Of a stretch of DNA of 64,000 nt, positions 292 to 15,495 are shown one piece after another; position 1 is the stretch's first letter, and every line of letters starts with the position of its first letter. The stretch is from Pyrobaculum ferrireducens. Lineage in GTDB: Archaea > Thermoproteota > Thermoprotei > Thermoproteales > Thermoproteaceae. The position numbers were made by a program, and so were the translations under genes. Location: the NCBI RefSeq assembly GCF_000234805.1, contig NC_016645.1:1-64000 (forward strand), in the 5' to 3' direction. Below the pieces are notes generated by a model. That model was not told the DNA's origin. It searched no databases and saw only the letters and a program-made list of their open reading frames with translations.

Positions 292-855
292 ATGCCCCCG
301 AAAAACGTCTCCCAAATCAAAGACAAGGAGAAGGCTGGGGAGAAGGTTAAGAAGCTTGCAATAGCCGCGCTGGCGTTGCTGGTGCTGGCAATGCCCATAC
401 TCGCCCAGCAGGCTGGCAACGCCACTGGCGGTGGCGGCGGGGGCGGCGGCGTTAGTCAAGGTAGGGACCTCGTGCTTAAAAGCGGCGCGGTTCAGAGCGT
501 CCAGTCAGCCGCCGGCGCTCTCATGGCCGTATGGGGCATAGCGTGGTGGGCGTCGCTCATAATCTTCGGCATCTACTACTTCGTAATGAGCAAGCTGGCA
601 CCGGCAAGCTGGGCGAGGTGGGGATACATCAACGATCTAGTCGACAAGTACAAGTGGCTACTACTGGCTATGATACTGTCGCCCTTCGCTGTTGGCCTCG
701 TGGTGCTTGGAGTAAACCTAGCCGCCGAGGCCTGGGGCCAGTCAGTTCAGAGCCAGCTAGACCCTCTGAAGACCGTGACGGACTTCCTAAGCCAAGTCCT
801 CATTCAGAGCGTCATAAAAGCGGGTGAGAAGCTGGCCTTCTGGACTACTAGCTGA
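292..855 (+). CDS. Small secreted two-helix membrane protein, pilin-like
   Basis: This 187-residue protein has a basic N-terminus (about residues 1-23), a hydrophobic segment at about 24-38 ending near LAQQ that looks like a signal peptide, a Gly-rich stretch of eight glycines near residue 50, and two strong hydrophobic segments at about 76-101 and 118-146. That order (signal, short linker, two helices) is the layout of VirB2/TrbC pilins and of the archaeal CedA1/TedC pilins; similarity was judged by architecture only. The ATG is used as the start, with a weak T-rich element about 26 nt upstream. The next gene begins 4 nt after the stop codon and the third overlaps it, so the three look like one operon. 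It could instead be an unrelated small membrane protein. Confidence 0.7.
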   Translation: MPPKNVSQIKDKEKAGEKVKKLAIAALALLVLAMPILAQQAGNATGGGGGGGGVSQGRDLVLKSGAVQSVQSAAGALMAVWGIAWWASLIIFGIYYFVMSKLAPASWARWGYINDLVDKYKWLLLAMILSPFAVGLVVLGVNLAAEAWGQSVQSQLDPLKTVTDFLSQVLIQSVIKAGEKLAFWTTS

Positions 856-859
856 GATA

Positions 860-1714
860 ATGCTGACCACACCCGAAATAATCACTCTTTTTTCCTCCTC
901 CATCATCTTCATCTACGGCCTCTACGCCTCCGTCCTATACGCCATTGGGGGGGCTAGGGAGAGGGAGGAGGCCCGCCACACCCTGTACAGAGCCCTAATC
1001 GCCGGGTTGCTCTTCGCCGCCGTTATGCTCTCCACGGCGCTGGTGGGATTCGGCGTTAGGGGCTTTTTGGAGGCTGTGGAGGCGGCGGCCGCCGAGACGG
1101 GGAGCAAGCCCCTCCAGCCCTACTGCCTCAAGTACTTCGACCTGGCGCCCTCCTTCAACATCGATGTGTACTTCGCCGCGGGGGCCAGGGCGCTTGAGTG
1201 CTCCGCCAAGACATTCAGCGAGAAGTTCAGCCGTTATGTAGACGCATACAGCACGATATTCTCCGCCACTACCATAACTGGGCTGGCCGGCGTAACCTCG
1301 CCGCTCTCCATGTCTCTATTCCAAGTAGCCATGCCCTTCTCAGGCGCGGCAAACGGGGCAATGCTGTCCCTCGCGACGGCCTACGCCGCCTCTCTCTTAG
1401 CAATAGGCCTCCTGGCGCTGGCCGGCCTCGCCGCCGTGCTGATAGCCATAGAGAGGCTTGAGTTGCTGGGGGCCGTCATCGCGGCTTTCAACATGGCCAT
1501 GCCCCCCGCCCTGGCCGCATACGCCGACTACGTGAGAGAGGTGGAGGTGACCTCCTTCGGATACCCCATTCTCTACGGCGCTGTGCTGAACGCAGTCGTG
1601 CCAGCCGCAAACATAGCCGCCGCCGCGGCCCTCGCCTTCACCATGGCCAGCGCGGTCACCGCCGCCATTACATACGCCTTCACCAAGATACCAGAGAGAA
1701 TCTCGGTGGAATGA
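860..1714 (+). CDS. Polytopic membrane protein, possible VirB6/CedA-like channel subunit
   Basis: This is a 284-residue protein from the ATG at 860; the open frame extends back to 824 but that would overlap the previous gene. Hydrophobic segments are visible near residues 8-30, 43-68, 135-160, 165-200, 205-230 and 240-275, with an exported loop between about 70 and 130 holding two cysteines. The segments are rich in Ala, Gly and Leu, as in polytopic channel proteins. Its place directly after a pilin-like gene recalls the VirB2-VirB6 pairing of conjugation systems and the archaeal Ced/Ted DNA-transfer systems, but no diagnostic motif is visible. Its TGA overlaps the ATG of the giant gene in an ATGA junction, which implies translational coupling. 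Confidence 0.7.
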   Translation: MLTTPEIITLFSSSIIFIYGLYASVLYAIGGAREREEARHTLYRALIAGLLFAAVMLSTALVGFGVRGFLEAVEAAAAETGSKPLQPYCLKYFDLAPSFNIDVYFAAGARALECSAKTFSEKFSRYVDAYSTIFSATTITGLAGVTSPLSMSLFQVAMPFSGAANGAMLSLATAYAASLLAIGLLALAGLAAVLIAIERLELLGAVIAAFNMAMPPALAAYADYVREVEVTSFGYPILYGAVLNAVVPAANIAAAAALAFTMASAVTAAITYAFTKIPERISVE

Positions 1715-4700
1715 TACCCATAACAGAAGCCCTAATTATCGCAGGAGTCCTCTCCGCCCTCTACCTACTCTTCGTCAGGGGAGACGAGGAGTGGTACTTC
1801 CCCATATTCGCCCTAGGGCTGGTTCTGCTCACCCCCTTCGTGGTGGACTTCGCCTTTAGGCTGGTGGCTCCCTTCGCCCCTACGCCGGTTTACCTCTACG
1901 GCTTCTACGACGTAGAGCACGTCCTCAAGGAGAGTGTGAGGCGTATGAAGGAGGCCTTCGACTTGGCCTACAGTACTGCACTGACCTTCGCCTACGCCAT
2001 TGAGGGCGCCGCCGTTGCCATGACGGCCGCCCTCGCCGCCATAGTCCTCGGAGTTGTTCTGGCGCCTCTCACCGGCGGAGGCTCTGTGGCCATCACAGCC
2101 GCCGCCATGCGTATCTACGAAATCGCCGATGCAATATACCACGTAGCGGCGACGGGATACAACGTGTCGACGGGCGCAATGATGACATACCACATCATGC
2201 ACTGGCTCGGCGAAATAGCAGAGAGGTGGGTCCCAACGCTGTTCTTCACCGGCATGCTCCTCATGTTACTACCCCGCGTGCGGGGGCTCGGGGCTCTGCT
2301 TTTCGGAGTCGGCCTCTTCCTCTACGTCGCCACGATAGCCGGGGCTTATACAACTCTACAAGGCATTCCGCTGTTGCAGTGGCTGAATGCGACAAGCCAG
2401 TGGGCTAACAGCGCCCCCAAGCCAGAGCCACAGATATACACGGCATTAGCCGTCGAGGGTGACGGAATTGCGTTGTTGAGATACAACGCCACTGTTTATT
2501 TGAGCCAGGTGAGGGAGGCAATTTTGGAGCTAAACAAATCGGCATACCCCTTCTCTCTTGTAAACAACACAACGCTGAGGTACGCCCTAGACTTCTTCTC
2601 ATCGCTGGCGAAGAACGGGAGCGACTGGGTGGCGGCGGGGTGGTGGACGCCTACGCTGGTGGGCGTCAAGAACTGGACCGGGCTAAACCAAAGCCGTCCC
2701 TACATAGTCCACACGTGGCTTGACGTTCCGCGTCCCGTCGAGATCCTATACTGGTGCCCGGACTACTCAATGATTGAGCCGTATTTCAGAGCGGCCGTCG
2801 GCAACGCCACTATTGCCAACGTGTCGGCCCAGGAGTGGATGGACAGGATAAAAGAGGCCGAGTGCAAGTACTACAAGAAGCTGTTACCATGGGCCAGGAT
2901 ATACGCCGGGCCTCAGCCCTTCTGGCGGATGCTCACCGCAGACCTCAACATCACCGTGACATACAACAACAAAACCCTCCTCAACGAGACGAGGGCCGGC
3001 TATGTAGGCGTATGGGGCTGGCTGGTGCCGCCCGCCTCGGAGGTCTACAAGGGCGGCAACGTCACTGTGAAGAGGGGTATTTTGAGGTACGACGTAGGCC
3101 TCAACGCGACGAACTACACAAAGCCCGCGGCGAGGCCGGCGGAGTCGAACTTTACGCTTCTGGTGCCCAATGCAGACAGGCCTGTAAAAGACGGTCATCA
3201 AGACTTCTACAAGTGGACTAGGGTGTGTGAGTGGTGTTGCGGGTGGACGTGTGACCCCAATGGCTACTGTTGGTGTGACGAGTGGTGCTCCACGTCGCGG
3301 GAGGAGTGGGAGGAGCCGAAGTACCAGAAGGAGCTGAAGCCCTCGGCCGCGGCGCTGACGGCGCTGTCCTACAGAAGGCCTTGGGTGCCGGAGAACCGTA
3401 GCGACGCCGTGCTGTCGATCCCATTCACGTATAGGGACTGGAGGGTCTGGGCTGAGGAGAAGTACGGCGAGTGGAGCAACGGGGAGCCGCCCAGCGGCGC
3501 CACGTGCCGGATTGAGAACAAGCACGTCTACAAGCGCGTAGTGTTCTGGGACGTACAGCGCAGTTTCGCCTACGTATACGGCTTCGCCTGGCTCGGCGGA
3601 GTGGCTCTCTCCGTAAACCCCCAGAGCGTACAGCTACCAGACACCTACGACGAGGCGCCGACAAGCGAAGACGGCGTCGAGTTGATAAACCTGCTGAGAG
3701 GCGCAGAGTACGACCAGGAATGCTCCACCTTTGTGCTTTCCGCAGACGAGCCTAAGTGGCGTCTGGTGCCGAAGGCCGCGGAGAACATGACCCGGGTGAA
3801 CCGCGACCTCTTCTTCGCCCTGCTGGCAAGCGGGAACTACAGCCGGGCGTATCTAGACTTTTTGAAGTGGCTGGCTCCAAACGTCAGCGACATAGAGCCG
3901 GCGGCCTCCGTCTGGCGCTACTACTACGGCGCAATAAAGCCAAGGCCCCTCCACCCAATGCCAGAGACTGAGCCGAGGGGGTACACGCCTTACAACTTCT
4001 ACGTGGCGTGTGTTAGGTTTGACTGGAGGCCCGTGGGCGTGGACAACACCAAGGAGGCCTACGGACGCGCCGTGCTGTACCCAGGCAACGCCACTTGGCT
4101 TCTCCACTACCCCGTCGGCGACTCAAACACCACGCGTAGGATAATCGGCGTCTGGATCCAGAGGTGGAGGTGGCTGATGAACAACCCGCCACCGCCGCCT
4201 CCCAAGGAGCTGGCGGCTCAGTGGCCCATACCCTGGAACGGCACGGTGGCCCTCTCCTACAAGCCCGCCGACACCCCGCCCATGCCCAGACCCGACAAGA
4301 GGTGGGGCGTTTCTATCTGGGATGTTGGCTTTACGTTGAATCTGCGGTGGGCTGTGGCGGAGATTTGGGGGAGGCTCTTCGTTGCGCTGTTCGTCGCCGT
4401 ATTCGCGCCGGTGGTGGTGCTGGAGGTGCTCTCCGCGGTGTTTGGCTTTCCGTCGTTTGGCCAGTACGTAATGAGGCTGGCTATACACGTAGTGCAGGAG
4501 CTCGCCTTCTGGTTCCAAATCCGCCTACTGCTGAGATCGAAGTGGTTCACCCGTCTGGCGAGGTTCATGAGCTCTCCTGTGAAGAGGGCCTCGGTGAGGC
4601 TGGTGAGGAGGCTGGCGCTGAAGGGGGCCGTAATCGCCAAGCGGTATAGGGATAGGGCTAGGGAGTACGTTGAGAGGAGATTCGGCGTACACCCAGACGC

Positions 4701-7700
4701 CGTCAACGAGCAGGTGAGGAGGCGCATCGAGGAGGCGGTGTGGCAGAGGCTGAGGCAGGCCGAGGAGGCTCTTGTGAAGGGAGGCAGAGAGGCGGCGAAG
4801 GCCGCCTACAAGGCGGCTAGAGAGGCCTACCGCGTTGCGAAGACGGTGCATGAATACACGAGAGGGGACCTTATCCACTTACTGCGGAGGATTTTCCCGA
4901 AGGTGGACTACGCCATAGACGCCCTCATGGAGGAGGTTGCGAGGCGCTACCCGTGGCTCTACTATACGCTGTTATGGCATATAGACGACAAGCCGAGGTG
5001 GCTTGCCCTTATCAACCCAGCCTACATTCGGAGGCTGTATCTAGAGGGCAAAATCACGAGGGAGAAATATGAGCAGTTTATGGCTGTGCGTGAATATCTC
5101 TTGGCCAGGAGGGCGGCGGCGAAGGCGAGGGCCGTCGCCGAGCGTGTTGAGGAATTCGCAGTAGCTCAGAAGATGAGGGAGATAGAGCGCGAGGCGGTCC
5201 AGCGCTCTAGACAAGCCTACATGGAGCTGATTAGGAAGCTAGCCGTCAAGGACTGGGAGGGCGAAATCGCGAAAAGCGTAGAGGAGCTTCTCAAAGCCGG
5301 CATGTCGAGAGAGGAGGCGGCGAGGAGGGCTGTCTCCGAGGTGGTTGGAGATGTGGAGAGGCTTGTTAGGGGGGTATACGAGCCCCTCCTCGAGATGCAC
5401 ATGGGGGCCTTCTCCAAATTCGCCGCCTTCTTTAGGCAGATAACTGGCGTAGAGCCGAAGTCGGCTAGGGAGGCGGCCGAACTTCTGGTGGGGGCTAGGA
5501 TAGAGGGGGAGAGGGTTGTGGTCGACCCCTCTCTCAGAGCTAAATTCCTAAGACACGCGGAGCAGTTCTGGGCGCTTTGGGAGGAGTACTGGCTGTCCCG
5601 CCCGGTGCCATACGACGCTCGTAGATACGCCAGGGCTGTGGCTGTGGACGAGATTAGGGCGAGTCTGCCGACGCTACGCGCCGTGGCCGTCGCCAGGGCG
5701 GTGGCCATAGGCGCGGTGAGGCCGGAGGAGGCCGAGCGGATGCTGAGGCCTCCCGTGAAAGAGCTGACGCTGGGCGCCGAGGAGTATGTGGGTAGAGCGA
5801 CGCCTCTTGAGAGAGGCGTATCGATAAAGCCCTATGTGTCGAGAGAGGGCTTGGCCGAGAGGCTGGCCGTGTTGAAGGCTGAGAGAGTGGCGGAGTCGGC
5901 GTATAGAGAAGTCTACGTCGTCTCCGCCTTGACGCCCATGGCCGCGGAGCCGTGGGCCGTCAAGCTTCTGGAGAAGGCCGTCAAGGCTGTGAAGGAAGGC
6001 GACGAGAAGGCTAGGAGGGAGGTTCTGCGGGAGTCCTTTGAGTACTTCCGCAGATTCGGCGCGGAGCACTCCTGGCTGGCGTACATGAGGCGGGTATACG
6101 CAGTGGAGAAGCCGGAGGCTGTTGAGGTGCTGAGGGCATTTGAGAAAGCCGTGAAGACGGCTTTGTCTGGCGATAGGGAGGAGGCGATGAGGCAGTTCAA
6201 AGCCGAGGTGGAGAGGCTGAGGGAGTTCTACGCCGCTAGGGGAGGCGAATCCGCAGTGAGGACCATCGAGAGGCTTGAATGGGAGTACGTCAAGCTTCTG
6301 GAGAAGGTTAGGCCGGAGGTGTTGAGAGACCTCGCCCCCGTTGAGCACTCGGCGAGGGAGGCCCAGAGGCTGAGGGCTGTCCTCGAGAGGCTTTCGGAGG
6401 CGAGGTCTGCGAGGGAGGGCTGGGAGCTGTTCAGGGAGGGTGACGTCGGGGCGGCTGGTCTTTCTCTGCTGTACAGAGGGCTGGTGGGGAGGGTGGAGGA
6501 GGCCGCCGCCAGGCATAGAGCCGTGGTGGACGCGGCCTCGGAGGCGCGGGAGGTGCTTAGGCAGTATGAAAACCTGAGGCCGTTACTCCGCAGATACCTG
6601 GAGGCCTCCCCGGCGGAGAGGGGGAGGTTTGAGTCTGCGCTGGTGCAGACAGCGGAGGCTTTGAGGAGGAGGGCTGGGGCAGTGTCTGAGCGGTTGCGTG
6701 TAGTGGAGGCGCCTCCCGAGTTTTATGTAAAACTCGCCGAGGCTTACATACAGCTGTACCGCATGAGAGTTGCAGACAGGGAGGAGAGGCTGAGGGCGGC
6801 GGCGCAGATAGGAGAGGAGCTGGGGAGGGCCTACTCGCCCAGGCCCCTGGCGGAGTTCTGGATTCCCGACCCGTTGCTCTACGCCATTGCGGCGGAGCAC
6901 AGAAGACTTGTTGAGGAGCTGAGAGCCGCCAAGGCGGCCGGCGGTGGCGAGGCGGTGAAGCGGATAGCCGCGGAGCTATCCGCCCTAGTCGAGCTGGCTC
7001 ACAGACACGCCTCCGCGAAGGAGGTGGCGGAGGTGTTTAGAGCTGTGTACGCTGGGAAAGAGCCGTATGTGGTGGTGAGAGAGGCGCAGTACGACGTGGC
7101 TCTCCGCCTGTGGCAGACCGCGGAGAGGGCGGCGGCGCTGGAGAAAGTCAAGAGAGACGTGTCGAAGGAATTAGAGCCTTTGAGAAAGGTCGAGGTTAGG
7201 CTGCCGGGCTACAGAGAGGCCCTGGAGAGGGTTTCTAGGCTGGTGGAGGAGGCGGAGGCCCTGGCTAGAGCCGGGAGGTACGTAGAGGCTGAGGGGCTGT
7301 TGGCGCATGCGAAGTCTCTCGCCGAAGCTCTTAACAGAGTGGAGAGGGCGGTAGGCGCCAGGTCTACGAAGATAGAGGCGCCTAGCGACGTCTCGCTCTA
7401 CCTAGACGCGTGGACAGCCGTGAGGTTATCAACGGCGGCCTCTCTGCTGTATACAGAGGGGGAGAGGCGTGCCTTGGCTAACGCCCTTAGAGAGCTGTAC
7501 AGCGGCAGAGGGCGGGAGCTGGCGGAGGCGGTGGCGGCTGTCAGAAAGGAATACGAGCCCTACTTCACAACGGTGAAGTTGCTGGGTAGGGAGGTGGAGG
7601 TTCCGGTGTTTAAACAGCCTACTGTGCCGGCGGAGGTCTTCGAGAGGGCTTTGGCTGTGGTGTTGCTGGCTGAGCTGGCTAGGCGCGAGAAGAGCGTGGC

Positions 7701-10700
7701 GGAGCATATAGGCAAGAGGATAGAGGCCATCGCCATAAACGCCCTTACAGACCTCGGGCAGAGGGTGGGGGTAGAGGAGGCTAAGCGCATCTGGGGCAGG
7801 GCCATAAAGGAGGCTCGGGAGGCTCTCCAGCCTCCCTTTGCGAAGCTGTCCACCGGCGACGCCGACGTACACGCCTTGAGGAGGGCGGCCGAGGCTGTTC
7901 TCGAAGTAGCCGGCAGACTCGGCGTGAGGACAAAGGCCGTGGAGGCGGCTGTCGAGCTGACGAAGCCCGGAGCCGCCGAGGCCGTCGTTAGGTATTTCAA
8001 AACTCTAGAAGAATTTAGAAAGACACAGGACAGGACTAGAGAGGAGGAGCTTAGGCGCCTAAGCCAAGAGGCGCCCGCCGCCATTTCCCTTCTGCAGAAG
8101 GCCGGCGCCGGGCCGGGTGAGGAGGCTGTTAGGCTTGTTGAGACGTTTAGGAGGGAGGCGGTGGAGGCCGCTTCTGCAGAGCTTGCGAAGTTACGTACAG
8201 AGCTTGAGAAGTACCTAGACCCCGACTCGGCGAGGCTGTTGATTAGAATCGCCTCTATCTCGCCCTCCGCGGCGGAGGCGGCTCTGGCTCTGTACTCAGC
8301 GAGGGAGGTTGTAGGCGGCGCCAAGGACGTGGAGAGGGCGAGGGCTGTGTTGAGGGAGTACGTCAAGGCTCTTGAGGCGTATCCGCGTCTCGTGGAGTAT
8401 CTGAGGTCTCCCGTGTTGGGGGAGAGGGAGCTGGCGTATGTAATATGGGCCGCCGAGAGGCTTGGCCTCAAAACGGCGTCGGAGATGCTTAGGGCTCTGG
8501 GGAGGGCCTACGAGCTTTTCGACGCCTACGGCCGGGAGAGGCTTTTCAACACGCTGTACGACCAGCTTCTGCCGTATTTGGGCTGGGAGCCTGAGAGAGC
8601 GCTTCTGAGAGCCCCGCCGGCCGTCTACGTGGTGAATAGGCTTGGGGAGCTGGCGGGGAGGGTCTTCGTTAGGTACCCCGTCTTCACAGAGCTGAAGGAT
8701 GTTGTCGGCGACGTGGCCGTTCTGGCGGACGTCCCGCTGAGGGTGGGCATGCCCACCTACGTCTTCAGACGGCCGAGGATTAGGCTGATAGAGGAGGAGG
8801 CCGGCGGCAGACACTACCCAGACAGAGTAGCCCGCTTCATCGCCAAGTGGGACTGGGCCGGCGTGCGCAAAGGCATCCAGCGCTATATGCGTACTACCGA
8901 GGGCAGGAGGCACAGAGCTCTGGCCGAGCTTCTGGCCAGAGGCGGGGTGGCGCTGGCTCTCGAAGAGGCGGCTTACGCGTTAAAGGGAAAGGCGCCTGAC
9001 GTCGTAGTTACAGCTCTGCTTGCCAGGGCGGCTAGGGAGGAGGCGGCTCTTGCAAAAGCCGCGGAGAAGGTGGATAGGGACAGGGCGAGGGTGGTGGCGG
9101 AAAGCGCGGCGAAGAAGTACAGCAGATACGTAAAACAGCTGAGAGAGGCGTTGATGAATATAGACGAGAAAAAGGCGGAGGAGCTTCGGAGGTGGTTCGG
9201 GCCGGGCGCTCTGTCTTTGACTAGGCTGGATCCTGAGGAGGCCGCCAGTAGGTTGATTAAGTGGTCTACGCCTGAGAGGGTTTTGGCGTGGCTGGTTGAT
9301 CTTAAGCTGGAGGGCGCCGCCGACGCTGTTGCGAAGTCGATAGAGGCCTACCGCATCTACAAGAGGTTTGAGAGGTGGATGGAGCCGAGGCGCACGTTTG
9401 TGAGGGAGGGCGGCGTCCTCTCCGTGGCAAAGGCTCTTGATGTCGAGGCGAGGTACCAGCCCTCCAGGCTAGAAGACGCTGTGGTTAGAAGCGTCGGTAG
9501 GTGGGCCTCTCAGCGGGTTAGGAGGCTTGAGGAGGAGGTGGGCAGAATAGCGTCTCAGCTGGCGAGGCACCACTCGGAGGGCAGAATCGAGTTGCCAAGC
9601 GCCGTGGCGCAGTGGCTCTGGGAGAGGGGCTACTACGACCTCGGCAGGTTGCTGAAGGAGGTTCAGCCAGCCGAGGATATCTACCGCGTCTATAGAGACG
9701 CGGTGAGGGGCGTCGTTGAGGAGCTCAAGGCAGTGGCGAAGTTCTCGCCGGGGGCAAAACACGAGGTGGAGCGCGTCGCGAAGGAGTGGTACGGCGAGGG
9801 AGGCCTAAGGCGCTACGTAGCTGTGATTGCGCTACAAGAGCTGGCTCGGATCGAGCCAGCCCGCGCGAGGGAGGCCGCGCTCTTCAGACAGCTCCCCGAA
9901 GAGCTTAGGCGGATGGCGGAGGCCGAGGTTGCAGACGTGGAGAGGGCTCTCGTTAGGGAGGGCTTCTACGACTCCGCGCTAAAGCCGGTGTGGAGAGCCC
10001 TCTGGCTGAGGGAAAGGGAAGGTAGAGACCCGAGGGAGTACGCCGAGAGGCTTATTGCCAGGGTCGAGGCGTTGGCAGGTAGAGGCGACCTTCCAGACGA
10101 AGTGGCGGAGAGGGCTGTCTCGGCGTTGAGACAGCTGGCGGAGTCGTCACTGGACGACCCGGCTCTCTACGAGAGGGCTGTCAAGGCGGGTGACGCCGTG
10201 GCGGAGGCGGCGGCTCATCTGGTGAGGACAAACGCCCTCGGCCTCGGCTACGGCGCCGCAGAGCTTCTGAAAGCCGCCGCGGAGGCGGTGGGCCGCATAG
10301 CCAAGTCCAGGGAGCTCCTCCTAGAGGCGCTGTATAGGGCAATGGATAGAGACGTTGAGGAGGCTCTCGAGGCATACCGCCAGTATCTGGCGCGCGGCGA
10401 GTTCCCCGTCCCCCGCGGCCTAGTGCAGGTCTACGTGACTAGGAGCAAGAAGGTGGCGGACTTCTTGGCCAGGCGCCTGGCCGTTGAGGTGGGCGAGTAC
10501 AGACCAGACGTCTTGAAGAGAGGCCACGTCTACTACTTCCTCTACCACCCCGCGCTGAGGGAGGTGCTTGGGAAGGCGCTTGACCTGCTGGTGGCTAAGG
10601 TGGCTAGGTCGAGAGATCCGGTGGAGGTGCGCCTCGGCGTGGCGCCTCCCGAATACGTCTTTGTAAACAAGGCGCTGGTGGCTCACGTAGGGGAGGGAGG

Positions 10701-13700
10701 GGTCTTTGCGTATCCCAACCGCTGGGTGGACGACGTCTTTGGCGTGTTGAAGAGTGTGGCTGACAAGGGGGTGTCGGTCTGGGGCCAGCACGTGGACAGA
10801 GCGGTCAAAGACCACGGCCCGGCTCTCCACGCCTATCTGAAGGCCGTGGACGTCGAGTACAGAAGGCTGTGGGTGCTGTACGGCGATCACCAGAGAGCTC
10901 TCAGAACCTACCTAGCATCGAAGGCCGCCGCCGTTATGTTTAACGAGTTTGTTAGGCAGGCGAGGGAGGGTAGGTACGAGGCGCTTTGGAGCTGGGTGCC
11001 GGGGAGCTGGGGCGAGGGGATCCTCCTCCACCTGGCGGAGAGGGCTGGGCGGTTGGTTACGCTGAGGGAGCTGGAGGACGCGCCTATTGTGGTGGATAGG
11101 GTGAAGAAGTGGCTTGAGTGGCTTCTGGCGGATAGGCTGGCGCCTCCCGGCGGCGTCGACGTCGCCTTCTACGCCGCGGCCAAGCTGTACTCGGAGGTTA
11201 GGGGCGTCGACGTGAGAGAGGTGGAGAGGTATGCGCTGGAGAGGCTACGCTCAATACTGAGGGAGGAGGCCAAAACCGCGGCCGAGGAGCTTGAAAAAGC
11301 CATGAAGCAGGCGGAGAAGCCGGCTGAAAAAGCCGCTCTGAAGCCGGCCAAGGAGGTTAAAGAGAGGGCGGCGGAGGGCGAGAAGCCGTCTGAAGAGGTT
11401 AAGGAGAAGCCGCCTCTCGGCTTCATACCTCCTCACTTGAGGGGTTCCTCTGCCGTGTCCTGGCTGGCCTCGGTGAAGGGGAGGGTGGAGCTGGATGGGG
11501 AGGCGGCTGAGGCGGTTGGCAAGGCGGCGAGGAGGGCTGTGGAGAGGGTGAGGGCGAGGTACGCCGAGAGGCTGGTGAGGAGGGGCGGCGCGGCGCTCGT
11601 CGAGGCGGCCGAGTCTCTGGCGAGAGACGTCTACAGCTTGATATGGCACGCCGCCGACTCCCCGGAGGCGCTGAACTATCTGGCGATCCTCCTCGAAAGG
11701 GCAGAGGACGTGGTACACGGCATGGAGCCGAGAAGCCCAGTGGAGGCAGACGCGGCTAGGGTCTTCGCGGAGGTTAGGGAGAGGTTTGAGAGGATAAGGG
11801 CGGAACTCGGCGAGGAGGCGGCTGAGGAAGCCTGGCGCTACGCGTATGCGGTGGGCAGAGAGGTGCTGAAGGCGTTGATCTCAACGCATGAAGGCGCCCT
11901 CAGAGCCGTCGCCACGGTGGAGCAGGCTCTGAGGCTTACTGTGTTTGCAAGCGCCGCGGCCGAGTCCTTAATCGCACTGCACCAAGGGCTGTACAGCGAG
12001 GCTGTTGTCTCCGCAGTGGCCGGCGCCATGGCGCTTGTGGAAGAGGGCCGTTTCGAGAAGGCGGTTGAGTACGTAAAGAGAGCCGCCGAGACTGCCTACG
12101 AGGCTCTGCGGGAGTGGTTTGAGAGGGCTAAAATCGCGCTTGAGAGGCTTTACGAGCTGTTTGTAGAGGCTGTAGCTCGCATAATCGCGTGGGTGGATGA
12201 GCACAGGGCGTGGCTGTTCCTCGCCGCGGCTACAACCGCCGGCGTAGTCACGTGGGCCTTTGCCCACGACGTCTTCGGCTCTATTCAGCTGGGGAAGCTG
12301 GCTTTAGCGGCTGGGCTGATTAAGTACGGCGAGTTTAAGAAGCCGCCAACAGTGCAGGAGCTGGTGGAGGCGGCAAAGAAGAGGAATGTAGATGTGGGCA
12401 AGGCGCTCGAGGAGCTGTTTAGCGTTGTGGACCAGCTTTATAGGGGCGCAGCCAAGGTAGACGAGGAAGGGCTTTTGAAGCTTGTAAATCTGCTGGAGGC
12501 GGCTAGGGGCGTTAGGGTGCCGTGGCTGGGGCCGGCGGCTGAGGCGCTTAAGTACTGGGAGAGGGGTAAGCGTAGCAAGGAGGAGAAGAACGAATACGCC
12601 AAGGCGGCTTTTCTAATCGTGTGGGCTGTGCTTCAGCGCCGCGCCCATGAGGTGTACGAGAGGCTTGTGGAGATGCGGAAGGCGAGAGAGGAGGCCGCCG
12701 CGGTTCTGAGGCAGGCGCTGGAGGGTAACGATAGAGAGAAGTGGAGGGAGTTCTACAACGTATTGAACAGACTGGAGGAGGCCGAGGGGAGGGTTTTGAA
12801 AATCGCTGAAGAAGTGGCGAACGAGCTTAACACCATCGCCGTCCATCTAAAAACCGCGGCTGAGAAGAAGGGCGTAAAGGCGCTGGAGAAGGTGGCGGAG
12901 TGGGTGGAGGTGAACGCGATAGAGGCGAGGAGGCTGGCAGAGGCGACTAGGGATAAGCTGTCTAGATTCTCCGGCGCCAACTACGGCACCAGGGCCGTGG
13001 CGTATCTAAAGGCCGTCGTCAGCGACAACATCGTTGGCTTGACTGTGCTGAGGGCTTTCGCCGCGGAGGACTTGGCTTCGCTTGTGGCTAATACGCCGCA
13101 TGGTGCGTACAACAAGTTGCTGGGGAGGGCGCAAAGCGTCAGACGCGGGCGGCTGAGGGAGCTTCCGCTTGAAGAGAGGCTGGTTGTGGAGCTGGGCAGA
13201 GTTCTGAAAGACGCTGAGGAGCGCGAAGAACTGAAGCACCTGGTGGAGGCGTTTGAAAAGGGCGAGGCGAGGGTGGTGAAGACAGAGAAGGAGGGGGAGT
13301 ACGTCATCTACGCCGGCGGTAAGAAGGCGGAGCTGGAGCTTTTGAAGGGCGGCGCCACGCTGTCAGTCGGCGAGCTGACCCGCCCGCTGGCGGAGAGGAA
13401 GCTGGAGGAGGCCAAAAGGGCTGTGGAGAAGTACGAGAAGATGCGTATCGCCGGCACAGCGCCTCCGCCTCTGCGCGAGGCGCAGGACGGATGGCTGTTA
13501 AGCGACGCCTCTGTGGTGGAGATCAGCGAAGAGGGGCGCATAGTCGTTATGGCGACCACCTCCTTGGAACAAGTGGTGGCGTTTATCTCGGCCTTCGGCG
13601 TGGGGGCTGAGGAGATACACTGGGGAGGCGGCGAGAGGGGGAAGAAGCCGGTCAAGATCTACGTCGAGCGCTTCAGCATAACCAGCGAGGGGCTGAAGCC

Positions 13701-15495
13701 CATGTACCGCGTAGAGCTTTACGGCAGATACGCCGAGGAGGTGTGGGAAAGGCTGTCGGCGGCGCGTAGCATGCCGGAGGATGAGAGGAAGAGGTTTATC
13801 GACTTCGTGGCTAAGACCCTGGAGGGCTCTGGCGTAGATCACGAGGCGTTTAGGCAGAAGCTGGAGAGGTGGCTTGGTGAGTGGCTTGCAAAGGCGCCGG
13901 GCTTAAAGCATCACCGGGTGTTCCACACCCTTGTGAACGTCTTGAAAGAGCTGGCGCAGAGCGAACAAGATGCCGAAAAGCGCGAGGTTGCGAGGAGGCG
14001 CGCCGTGGGTATGCTCCTCCACGCCGTGCTGGGGGACGGTTCTGTGTATTCAAACGAGATTAGGCTAACCGTCGGCGGCGGTGAGGAGGATGAGGTGCCG
14101 GCGGAGGTCAAGGCGGCTCTCTACTACACATTGCTTAAGAGAATTGGGTATGAGCCGAAGATGCACGAAGACAGAGGCGTCGTCCACATAAGGCTTTACG
14201 GCGGGGAGGCGAGGAAGTTCGCCCGGGATGCTCTGCCGTATCTGGTGGCTCTTGAGCGTGTGCTTGAGGAGGTGAGGAGCGATGAACAGATTTATTCCAA
14301 AGTGGAGAAGATGGCCGACATGGCCAAGGCAGAAAAAGTGAAGGCGCGGGTGGAGGGCTTCACCGCCGAGGGCGGCAGGCCGAGGGCTAGGCTGGTTGTC
14401 GAGGCTGAAGGCGCGGCGGCGGAGTACATAATACATCTACAAAGAAACAATGCCGTAGCGCTTGAATTCGGCACAACTAACCGCGCCGAGGCTGAGCGGA
14501 GGGCGGCGGTGCTGAGGGTTATGGGCGTGAGAGCGGAGGTAGGCAAATACTACCACAAGTCCCGCGGCCGCGACGTGTGGCGTATAGACGTCTCGACGAA
14601 CGCTCTAGCCGCGGAGTCGGTGCACGAGGCGGTTAGAAGGGCGGTGGTGGAGTTCCTCAAACAGTGCAGAGAGGCCGGCGTCCTCGGAGAGGAGACGTAC
14701 AGACGCCTAGCCGGGAAGTTCGAGAGGGGCGTGCCTGAGTGGGGAGAGGTAAGGTACTCCGTAAAGCTGACGAAACACGGCGCTGTAGAAGTAACGTACG
14801 AACCCAGAGATCCCCAGTCCTTTAACAAAGCGGTGGAGCTTCTGCGGGGGCTAGGGATGAGGGATGCATGCGAAGGGGAGTGGTGTGTAGTACACTTCAC
14901 GGCTAGGGAGCCGAGAAGGGGCGAGAAGGGCTTTGTGCGCATAACGGCGGACGGCCTTAGGTACGTCGGCTGGCTGGCCAGCCGCGGCGATGAGAGAGCG
15001 CAGTGGCTGAAGGAAATGCTCCTCAAGGAGGCCGAAGCGAGGGGGGAGGAGGTGCGCAAGCGCTTGGAGGAGTACTTCCGCGAAGGCGAGCAGTGGGGCT
15101 CTGTGAAGCCGCCGATAGAGAAGGAGGTTGAGGTGGAGGGTAGGCGGCTGAGGGTGCGTATAGATGAGGTGGAAGCCGGCATAGAACGCGGCGAGAGGAA
15201 GGAGTACTTAGTCGTCAAGATGCGGGCGAAGGTTATGGAGGGTGGACGCGAAATAACTGTGCAGAAGGAGGTGAAGTTCTACAAAACCAGCGGCGGTAGG
15301 ATTAAAGGCTACATAACTATACGCGGCGACACCGATGAGGAACGCGCGGCGGACTACGCGAGAACAGCCGCCGTGCTGAAAGCCCTCGGCGTAGAGAGCT
15401 GGAGCAGACATAAAGAACAGATACAACTCACCGGAGGCGCCCTAAACGCCCTCATGCACCTAGAGCCGGTGTGCTACGCTGTATTGAGCAGATAG
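1711..15495 (+). CDS. Giant 4594-residue membrane-anchored protein with PaREP2b-like C-terminus
   Basis: One uninterrupted frame of 13.8 kb. Seen in order: hydrophobic segments near residues 6-24, 30-55, 97-120 and 174-216; a probable exported domain (about 217-880) with over a dozen N-x-S/T sequons, a Cys/Trp-rich knot at about 505-526 (seven Cys) and a Pro run near 826-831; a membrane segment at about 883-913; then some 2300 residues of Arg/Glu/Ala-rich amphipathic helix; a Lys/Pro/Glu linker near 3190-3244; a further hydrophobic segment near 3499-3522; and a C-terminal region (about 4050-4594) resembling PaREP2b proteins, including LLHAVLGDGSVYSNEIRL from 4102, which looks like a LAGLIDADG-type motif. 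Function is unknown; a cell-surface or DNA-transfer role is inference. Its length, with no stop codon, argues that it is maintained by selection. It is translationally coupled to the upstream membrane gene. Confidence 0.85.
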   Translation: MIPITEALIIAGVLSALYLLFVRGDEEWYFPIFALGLVLLTPFVVDFAFRLVAPFAPTPVYLYGFYDVEHVLKESVRRMKEAFDLAYSTALTFAYAIEGAAVAMTAALAAIVLGVVLAPLTGGGSVAITAAAMRIYEIADAIYHVAATGYNVSTGAMMTYHIMHWLGEIAERWVPTLFFTGMLLMLLPRVRGLGALLFGVGLFLYVATIAGAYTTLQGIPLLQWLNATSQWANSAPKPEPQIYTALAVEGDGIALLRYNATVYLSQVREAILELNKSAYPFSLVNNTTLRYALDFFSSLAKNGSDWVAAGWWTPTLVGVKNWTGLNQSRPYIVHTWLDVPRPVEILYWCPDYSMIEPYFRAAVGNATIANVSAQEWMDRIKEAECKYYKKLLPWARIYAGPQPFWRMLTADLNITVTYNNKTLLNETRAGYVGVWGWLVPPASEVYKGGNVTVKRGILRYDVGLNATNYTKPAARPAESNFTLLVPNADRPVKDGHQDFYKWTRVCEWCCGWTCDPNGYCWCDEWCSTSREEWEEPKYQKELKPSAAALTALSYRRPWVPENRSDAVLSIPFTYRDWRVWAEEKYGEWSNGEPPSGATCRIENKHVYKRVVFWDVQRSFAYVYGFAWLGGVALSVNPQSVQLPDTYDEAPTSEDGVELINLLRGAEYDQECSTFVLSADEPKWRLVPKAAENMTRVNRDLFFALLASGNYSRAYLDFLKWLAPNVSDIEPAASVWRYYYGAIKPRPLHPMPETEPRGYTPYNFYVACVRFDWRPVGVDNTKEAYGRAVLYPGNATWLLHYPVGDSNTTRRIIGVWIQRWRWLMNNPPPPPPKELAAQWPIPWNGTVALSYKPADTPPMPRPDKRWGVSIWDVGFTLNLRWAVAEIWGRLFVALFVAVFAPVVVLEVLSAVFGFPSFGQYVMRLAIHVVQELAFWFQIRLLLRSKWFTRLARFMSSPVKRASVRLVRRLALKGAVIAKRYRDRAREYVERRFGVHPDAVNEQVRRRIEEAVWQRLRQAEEALVKGGREAAKAAYKAAREAYRVAKTVHEYTRGDLIHLLRRIFPKVDYAIDALMEEVARRYPWLYYTLLWHIDDKPRWLALINPAYIRRLYLEGKITREKYEQFMAVREYLLARRAAAKARAVAERVEEFAVAQKMREIEREAVQRSRQAYMELIRKLAVKDWEGEIAKSVEELLKAGMSREEAARRAVSEVVGDVERLVRGVYEPLLEMHMGAFSKFAAFFRQITGVEPKSAREAAELLVGARIEGERVVVDPSLRAKFLRHAEQFWALWEEYWLSRPVPYDARRYARAVAVDEIRASLPTLRAVAVARAVAIGAVRPEEAERMLRPPVKELTLGAEEYVGRATPLERGVSIKPYVSREGLAERLAVLKAERVAESAYREVYVVSALTPMAAEPWAVKLLEKAVKAVKEGDEKARREVLRESFEYFRRFGAEHSWLAYMRRVYAVEKPEAVEVLRAFEKAVKTALSGDREEAMRQFKAEVERLREFYAARGGESAVRTIERLEWEYVKLLEKVRPEVLRDLAPVEHSAREAQRLRAVLERLSEARSAREGWELFREGDVGAAGLSLLYRGLVGRVEEAAARHRAVVDAASEAREVLRQYENLRPLLRRYLEASPAERGRFESALVQTAEALRRRAGAVSERLRVVEAPPEFYVKLAEAYIQLYRMRVADREERLRAAAQIGEELGRAYSPRPLAEFWIPDPLLYAIAAEHRRLVEELRAAKAAGGGEAVKRIAAELSALVELAHRHASAKEVAEVFRAVYAGKEPYVVVREAQYDVALRLWQTAERAAALEKVKRDVSKELEPLRKVEVRLPGYREALERVSRLVEEAEALARAGRYVEAEGLLAHAKSLAEALNRVERAVGARSTKIEAPSDVSLYLDAWTAVRLSTAASLLYTEGERRALANALRELYSGRGRELAEAVAAVRKEYEPYFTTVKLLGREVEVPVFKQPTVPAEVFERALAVVLLAELARREKSVAEHIGKRIEAIAINALTDLGQRVGVEEAKRIWGRAIKEAREALQPPFAKLSTGDADVHALRRAAEAVLEVAGRLGVRTKAVEAAVELTKPGAAEAVVRYFKTLEEFRKTQDRTREEELRRLSQEAPAAISLLQKAGAGPGEEAVRLVETFRREAVEAASAELAKLRTELEKYLDPDSARLLIRIASISPSAAEAALALYSAREVVGGAKDVERARAVLREYVKALEAYPRLVEYLRSPVLGERELAYVIWAAERLGLKTASEMLRALGRAYELFDAYGRERLFNTLYDQLLPYLGWEPERALLRAPPAVYVVNRLGELAGRVFVRYPVFTELKDVVGDVAVLADVPLRVGMPTYVFRRPRIRLIEEEAGGRHYPDRVARFIAKWDWAGVRKGIQRYMRTTEGRRHRALAELLARGGVALALEEAAYALKGKAPDVVVTALLARAAREEAALAKAAEKVDRDRARVVAESAAKKYSRYVKQLREALMNIDEKKAEELRRWFGPGALSLTRLDPEEAASRLIKWSTPERVLAWLVDLKLEGAADAVAKSIEAYRIYKRFERWMEPRRTFVREGGVLSVAKALDVEARYQPSRLEDAVVRSVGRWASQRVRRLEEEVGRIASQLARHHSEGRIELPSAVAQWLWERGYYDLGRLLKEVQPAEDIYRVYRDAVRGVVEELKAVAKFSPGAKHEVERVAKEWYGEGGLRRYVAVIALQELARIEPARAREAALFRQLPEELRRMAEAEVADVERALVREGFYDSALKPVWRALWLREREGRDPREYAERLIARVEALAGRGDLPDEVAERAVSALRQLAESSLDDPALYERAVKAGDAVAEAAAHLVRTNALGLGYGAAELLKAAAEAVGRIAKSRELLLEALYRAMDRDVEEALEAYRQYLARGEFPVPRGLVQVYVTRSKKVADFLARRLAVEVGEYRPDVLKRGHVYYFLYHPALREVLGKALDLLVAKVARSRDPVEVRLGVAPPEYVFVNKALVAHVGEGGVFAYPNRWVDDVFGVLKSVADKGVSVWGQHVDRAVKDHGPALHAYLKAVDVEYRRLWVLYGDHQRALRTYLASKAAAVMFNEFVRQAREGRYEALWSWVPGSWGEGILLHLAERAGRLVTLRELEDAPIVVDRVKKWLEWLLADRLAPPGGVDVAFYAAAKLYSEVRGVDVREVERYALERLRSILREEAKTAAEELEKAMKQAEKPAEKAALKPAKEVKERAAEGEKPSEEVKEKPPLGFIPPHLRGSSAVSWLASVKGRVELDGEAAEAVGKAARRAVERVRARYAERLVRRGGAALVEAAESLARDVYSLIWHAADSPEALNYLAILLERAEDVVHGMEPRSPVEADAARVFAEVRERFERIRAELGEEAAEEAWRYAYAVGREVLKALISTHEGALRAVATVEQALRLTVFASAAAESLIALHQGLYSEAVVSAVAGAMALVEEGRFEKAVEYVKRAAETAYEALREWFERAKIALERLYELFVEAVARIIAWVDEHRAWLFLAAATTAGVVTWAFAHDVFGSIQLGKLALAAGLIKYGEFKKPPTVQELVEAAKKRNVDVGKALEELFSVVDQLYRGAAKVDEEGLLKLVNLLEAARGVRVPWLGPAAEALKYWERGKRSKEEKNEYAKAAFLIVWAVLQRRAHEVYERLVEMRKAREEAAAVLRQALEGNDREKWREFYNVLNRLEEAEGRVLKIAEEVANELNTIAVHLKTAAEKKGVKALEKVAEWVEVNAIEARRLAEATRDKLSRFSGANYGTRAVAYLKAVVSDNIVGLTVLRAFAAEDLASLVANTPHGAYNKLLGRAQSVRRGRLRELPLEERLVVELGRVLKDAEEREELKHLVEAFEKGEARVVKTEKEGEYVIYAGGKKAELELLKGGATLSVGELTRPLAERKLEEAKRAVEKYEKMRIAGTAPPPLREAQDGWLLSDASVVEISEEGRIVVMATTSLEQVVAFISAFGVGAEEIHWGGGERGKKPVKIYVERFSITSEGLKPMYRVELYGRYAEEVWERLSAARSMPEDERKRFIDFVAKTLEGSGVDHEAFRQKLERWLGEWLAKAPGLKHHRVFHTLVNVLKELAQSEQDAEKREVARRRAVGMLLHAVLGDGSVYSNEIRLTVGGGEEDEVPAEVKAALYYTLLKRIGYEPKMHEDRGVVHIRLYGGEARKFARDALPYLVALERVLEEVRSDEQIYSKVEKMADMAKAEKVKARVEGFTAEGGRPRARLVVEAEGAAAEYIIHLQRNNAVALEFGTTNRAEAERRAAVLRVMGVRAEVGKYYHKSRGRDVWRIDVSTNALAAESVHEAVRRAVVEFLKQCREAGVLGEETYRRLAGKFERGVPEWGEVRYSVKLTKHGAVEVTYEPRDPQSFNKAVELLRGLGMRDACEGEWCVVHFTAREPRRGEKGFVRITADGLRYVGWLASRGDERAQWLKEMLLKEAEARGEEVRKRLEEYFREGEQWGSVKPPIEKEVEVEGRRLRVRIDEVEAGIERGERKEYLVVKMRAKVMEGGREITVQKEVKFYKTSGGRIKGYITIRGDTDEERAADYARTAAVLKALGVESWSRHKEQIQLTGGALNALMHLEPVCYAVLSR

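Follow-up and report, generated by a model that had tools for sequence, protein, structure and literature searches.

The window, by which we mean the whole stretch of 64,000 nucleotides analyzed here, comprises bases 1-64000 of the single-contig 2.47-Mb chromosome of Pyrobaculum ferrireducens, and it begins at the numbering origin. Close to that origin lie three consecutive genes, the last of them of giant size and directly followed by ileRS. An earlier note on this DNA had called attention to the giant as a 13.8-kb uninterrupted frame, and it is indeed one open frame with an ATG start and no internal stops. The genes and the regions of the giant protein are collected in Table 1.

Table 1. Coordinates of the tedC-tedA-giant genes in the window, and of the regions of the giant protein
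Feature	Position	Strand	Remarks
TedC-type (VirB2-like) conjugative pilin	292..855	+	187 aa, signal peptide ending AQ, two hydrophobic helices
TedA-type (VirB6-like) polytopic membrane protein	824..1714	+	TedA profile A2 relatives adjoin giants
Giant gene, third in the Ted operon	1711..15495	+	4594 aa
Residues 1-213, TedA/VirB6-like membrane bundle, R-x-R-G-L-G-A motif	1711..2349	+	hhalign to TedA profile
Residues ~215-885, extracellular domain, 24 sequons, Cys-rich patch (CEWCCGWTCDPNGYCWCDEWC) near residue 506	2353..4365	+	
Residues 889-907, membrane anchor, then Arg/Lys-rich stretch (positive-inside)	4375..4431	+	
Residues ~940-3499, charged helix-rich arm, no sequons or repeats detected	4528..12207	+	
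Residues 3500-3518, conserved hydrophobic segment	12208..12264	+	absent from the earlier note
Residues 3536-4594, PaREP2b-type module, also as orphan genes and fragments	12316..15492	+	
LAGLIDADG-like domain around GDG (residues 4108-4110)	13966..14200	+	motif, AF2 fold, Foldseek
Pfam PaRep2b (PF07775) match, two stretches	14278..15486	+	

The product of the first gene matches 8dft, the P. calidifontis pilin (phmmer E = 7.7e-9, residues 68-171), and its signal/AQ region is conserved in an alignment with seven relatives. The true start of tedA is probably nearer 851, and its stop overlaps the ATG of the giant (ATGA, 1711-1714). P. calidifontis has the same order: tedC, with a product that differs from 8dft at one of 112 residues; directly behind it tedA (310 aa), with which the TedA of the window aligns; and a 5058-aa giant, again overlapping tedA by ATGA. 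Beltran et al. 2023 (PMC9905601) treat this locus and name TedA, TedB, and TedC. Their text makes no mention of a third gene behind tedA; their figure may show it as a gray gene.

The earlier note named long homologues in syntenic loci of other species as what would support it, and the tedC-tedA-giant order does recur across the Thermoproteaceae. On the chromosome studied here, it occurs in the window, at a second locus (L016), and at a third (L017) with tedA 2.6 kb from the giant. When 61 genomes are searched with a TedA profile, 11 loci are strong, and a giant N-terminus lies within about 140 bp downstream in 10 of them, and at 2.6 kb in the 11th. ATGA or TAATG overlaps appear in all nine tedA-giant junctions examined; by sequence, the giant is translationally coupled to tedA. 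Counting against an assignment to the Ted system, another giant of the same chromosome (L013) has neither tedC nor tedA beside it.

With the window beginning at the numbering origin, the remainder of the Ted locus falls just before it. ParA-like, TedB-like (DUF87/HerA), AAA, and Rad51-like genes are found in the final 18 kb of the chromosome (L018), ordered as in the L015/L016 copy of the locus, and when the chromosome ends are joined, both sides of the junction align with that copy. The TedB-like gene (L018 7747-9723) matches DUF87/HerA with an E-value of 5e-13, and its NCBIfam CedD/VirB4/HerA matches are partial and below the cut-off. The locus has the makeup of the Ted operon, with a TedC pilin, a VirB6-like TedA, a VirB4-like TedB ATPase, and ParA-like and recombinase-like genes nearby.

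The host chromosome has two more intact giants, of 4608 aa (L013, 86% identity) and 4642 aa (L016, 78%), and a diverged split one (L017) with frames of 1966 and 1617 aa, from which about 1000 middle residues are absent. In other genomes, uninterrupted homologues span 4239 to 5058 aa: 4372 aa in P. oguniense (G002), 5058 aa in P. calidifontis (G010), 4239 aa in Thermoproteus sp. CP80 (start uncertain), and 4471 aa in a Thermoproteus-type genome (G012) that also has a giant of at least 4122 aa at a partial locus. That homologues might be broken up was a concern of the earlier note; most are single frames, and the breaks seen are those of the split paralogue and of one metagenome-assembled genome (G014), where the giant is spread over consecutive ORFs. 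Comparing the window giant with its two same-genome paralogues gives an overall dN/dS of 0.157 (a/b) and 0.22 (a/c). The ratio is lower over the first 1600 residues than elsewhere, measures 0.09-0.14 over the first 1200 aa, and is about 0.25-0.43 over the last 1000 aa. Purifying selection covers the whole length of the giant, and the C-terminal module is its fastest-evolving part. These low ratios, together with the long uninterrupted homologues, argue that the frame is functional and not due to chance, and bear out the view of the earlier note that it is probably under selection. Relatives of the giant were searched for in viral contigs, plasmids, and phages and none were found, so an origin from a virus or plasmid is unsupported. 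A whole-protein hmmscan against Pfam reported no match (missing even PF07775), and searches of NCBIfam and PHROGs gave nothing convincing. In the L016 giant, identity falls to 34% around residues 3000-3200, with 69-90% on either side, which suggests recombination with a diverged copy.

The architecture described in the earlier note can be followed from the N-terminus. Hydropathy gives the proposed four membrane segments before residue 215 (five in the paralogue). Against the TedA profile, the N-terminus has an hhalign score of 44.1 (E = 1.4e-5), where the best of 60 block-shuffled decoys reaches 25.2 and the reversed profile 24.7; against the short homologues discussed below, the bundle has an E-value of 6e-10. 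By profile comparison, then, the first ~210 residues of the giant resemble TedA itself. The Pfam TrbL/VirB6 model has no match to the giant N-terminus up to E = 5, and TedA fails likewise. PDB sequence-profile searches with the giant N-terminus, TedA, and the LAGLIDADG region gave no informative match, and an AF2 prediction for the first 1020 aa (four sequences) is unusable, with a pLDDT of 33. We also considered an alpha-pore-forming identity for the N-terminal helices (E ~0.01-0.06), which we rejected as helix composition.

Both the glycosylation-rich ectodomain and the second membrane anchor hold up, the latter as a hydropathy segment at 889-907. Residues 220-920 contain 24 N-glycosylation sequons, and the more than 3,600 residues beyond 940 contain none, a split common to the full-length homologues; residues 215-885 also hold 12 cysteines. 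This split, and the anchor followed by a strongly basic stretch, would place the ectodomain outside and the remainder inside. Residues 940-3500 are Ala/Glu/Arg-rich and helix-favoring, which agrees, as far as residue propensities go, with the more than 2000 residues of helix claimed; self-BLAST detects no internal repeats. The arm is probably cytoplasmic. For the C-terminal module, the extra hydrophobic segment at ~3500 makes the topology uncertain.

The PaREP2b-like C-terminus is confirmed by Pfam: PF07775 matches at 14278-14913 with 53.8 bits, for a curated cut-off of 20.4, and reaches 247 bits in the P. oguniense giant. PaRep2b has been described as a family of stand-alone repeat proteins, and the PaREP2b-type module does stand alone in two neighboring Pyrobaculum genomes, G006 and G008 (sp. 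WP30), whereas in the giant the ~400 residues that match form the end of a T4SS-linked protein. Within the module, the DG of an xDG motif is invariant in 13 of 13 aligned sequences, and the P. calidifontis and G012 giants have the same kind of motif. An AF2 model of residues 3901-4594 has a pLDDT of 80.5. Its top natural PDB matches by Foldseek are LAGLIDADG inteins and homing endonucleases (TliVMA, I-DmoI, I-SceI), all weak (E 0.009-0.4), and its viral structure matches include annotated homing endonucleases and intein-type domains. The LAGLIDADG_3 model (cut-off 22.5) gives 24.1 bits in a WP30 PaREP2b relative, 21.0 in the split copy L017, and 20.0 in paralogue c; the window giant is not listed.

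By motif and predicted fold, the C-terminal domain is LAGLIDADG-like, and it is probably DNA-binding. The predicted domain shares with homing endonucleases (I-DmoI, I-SceI, inteins) the alpha-beta-beta-alpha-beta-beta-alpha order and the invariant DG, but the similarity is weak, there is one acidic motif, and there is no intron or intein context. With only that one acidic motif conserved, as one invariant Asp per chain, catalysis stays putative; a dimer could supply the second catalytic acidic residue. Two side observations concern the family at large. A 547-aa frame (G000:C1:1633477-1634211) has LAGLIDADG_3 over the cut-off and then a stretch related to the C-terminus of the giant, and may connect PaREP2b with the classical LAGLIDADG proteins. 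And a PaRep2b protein with 447 bits occurs outside the Thermoproteales (L094), where its 3.7-kb contig was assigned to Candidatus Calditenuaceae, by either transfer or misbinning.

The C-terminal module also occurs apart from the giants and in exchanged form. More than 20 C-terminal copies and fragments are found in each of the host genome and a second one (G003); they share one 3′ end but differ in where they start. Some are broken, and the four intact ones tested have dN/dS of ~0.2-0.33. One G003 giant (L066:10183-11872, contig 6) has ~85% DNA identity to the others over 10.2 kb, and just after the 3500 segment it switches abruptly to another module, which has ~37% identity to the L017 one; antisense behind this giant lies a PaREP2b remnant. 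In G014, the last of the consecutive ORFs (L082:2232-5600) has a LAGLIDADG-like motif and then ends in a PAPS-reductase/PP-loop domain (PF01507, E = 9e-13). An intact 414-aa PaREP2b orphan (L018:15107-16351) sits inside the Ted locus itself, between the Rad51-like gene and tedC, and is missing from the equivalent position at the L015/L016 copy. Insertion of PaREP2b linked to tRNAs was rejected as a rule, the single tRNA found being ~300 bp behind the split copy L017.

What, then, is the giant? The earlier note offered a single-gene "surface, contact or DNA-transfer machine". The conserved tedC-tedA-giant operon strongly favors DNA transfer among these options and does away with the single gene, since the giant stands third in a T4SS-like operon and has a membrane part akin to the product of tedA next to it. 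With its gene immediately after those for the pilus and the pore of a conjugation-like DNA-exchange machine, the giant is most likely part of that machine, and a previously undescribed one. We think it likely, arguing from gene order and homology, that it is a structural component of the Thermoproteales Ted apparatus, a T4SS derivative, and an archaeal "extended VirB6".

The behavior of the C-terminal module invites other readings. A PaREP2b element of the LAGLIDADG homing-endonuclease type could have parasitized the ted operon, leaving the giant mainly as a vehicle for its spread with no role in transfer. The scattered copies, many of them broken, the LAGLIDADG-like fold, the module replaced in one homologue, and the description of PaREP2b as a putative transposon (PMC3558965) all agree with this; yet constraint is strongest in the N-terminal half (dN/dS ~0.1), the same membrane plan occurs in short homologues of other families, and the giant N-terminus tracks tedA, so that we find a selfish gene of this kind quite improbable. 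The abrupt swap after residue 3536, with ~85% DNA identity upstream, could also recall the logic of CdiA and Rhs, in which a fixed membrane and stalk part would bring an exchangeable C-terminal nuclease to, or against, partner cells, with the orphan cassettes as a reservoir. A polymorphic contact-dependent effector of this sort would account for the fast evolution of the C-terminus, for orphan cassettes sharing a 3′ end, and for the homologue ending in a PAPS-reductase domain. But the absence of sequons after residue 940 makes the C-terminus look cytoplasmic, no immunity gene is recognized behind the giants (ileRS follows in the window), and the orphans are under purifying selection; we give such an effector little chance.

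The selfish and effector readings explain the C-terminal copies and swaps well, and not the N-terminal constraint or the linkage to tedA, and both may be partly true of the C-terminal module. The large glycosylated Cys-rich ectodomain would also suit a surface adhesin or S-layer-linked stalk for cell aggregation, merely co-regulated with Ted. Such a protein is very unlikely, as only ~670 of the 4594 residues are outside, and a TedA-like bundle and a DNA-binding-type C-terminus do not fit it.

For the giant as a component of the Ted machine, we infer complex membership, the sidedness of the arm, and the handling of DNA as follows. The N-terminal bundle and TedA would assemble together about the channel in the inner membrane. 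Between membrane and S-layer, the glycosylated Cys-rich domain would brace either the TedC pilus or the junction with the partner cell, and would fill the place of the VirB8/VirB10-type scaffold proteins that archaea lack. The helical arm of ~2,500 residues would extend into the cytoplasm, and the C-terminal LAGLIDADG-like domains may bind, and perhaps cut, DNA, relaying it among the pore, TedB, and the Rad51-like protein encoded at this locus. A bolder version, which we regard as rather unlikely, is that archaeal conjugation-like transfer has its missing DNA-processing enzyme in the tethered LAGLIDADG-like end: a nuclease on the ~2,500-residue arm, anchored at the channel, would cut or capture DNA on its way in or out through the Ted pore, and the scattered C-terminal copies would be traces of this activity.

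Extended VirB6 proteins occur in bacteria (PMC12857230). Those of the Rickettsiales are VirB6-3 and VirB6-4, and the VirB6-4 of Anaplasma reaches 4,322 and 9,935 aa (PMC7648143); TraG of the F plasmid is grouped with them. The giant is like these proteins in its putative VirB6-type bundle, its very long hydrophilic extension, its comparable size, and the tandem VirB6 paralogues of its operon. The bacterial extensions, however, are tandem repeats and probably surface-exposed, while the giant has no detectable repeats; a glycosylated ectodomain is inserted in it, its arm is probably cytoplasmic, and it ends in a LAGLIDADG-like domain.

Archaea are without VirB3 and VirB8 homologues, and Ted, in which pilin, pore, and ATPase are the only named parts, is called the most simplified T4SS (PMC11868833); nor do archaea have recognized relaxases (PMC11868833, PMC12857230). 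A protein of four to five thousand residues would be the largest part of the Ted system, and a testable candidate for both roles missing in archaeal T4SSs, scaffold and relaxase. It would extend the theme of the extended VirB6 to archaea, and it would give the PaREP2b repeat family a context, as C-terminal modules of a transfer-machine protein.

Profile searches also find short homologues, of 914-1450 aa, in other families of the class. Their plan is several membrane helices, 12-15 sequons, an anchor, and a tail. In one genome (G046) the order is a pilin-like gene (134 aa), a TedA-like gene (274 aa), and a 1403-aa homologue. Given this order and the shared plan, the giant looks like an enlarged version of an old third component. 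Single-sequence searches found no PDB match for the outgroup pilins, which are putative pilins by their position, their length, and their two hydrophobic helices.

A last observation concerns this same genome. Compared with the gene of the 1403-aa homologue (L078:7112-11323), five loci (L098-L102) are truncated copies of its 3′ end (~290-520 bp, 87-93% DNA identity). Similarity ends within 2 bp of the stop codon in five of five, and the 5′ ends vary. This is the nested 3′-anchored pattern of PaREP2b, in unrelated sequence. By eye, the flanks of two of the copies (L100 and L101) resemble the end of a TnpB-type transposase gene on the opposite strand.
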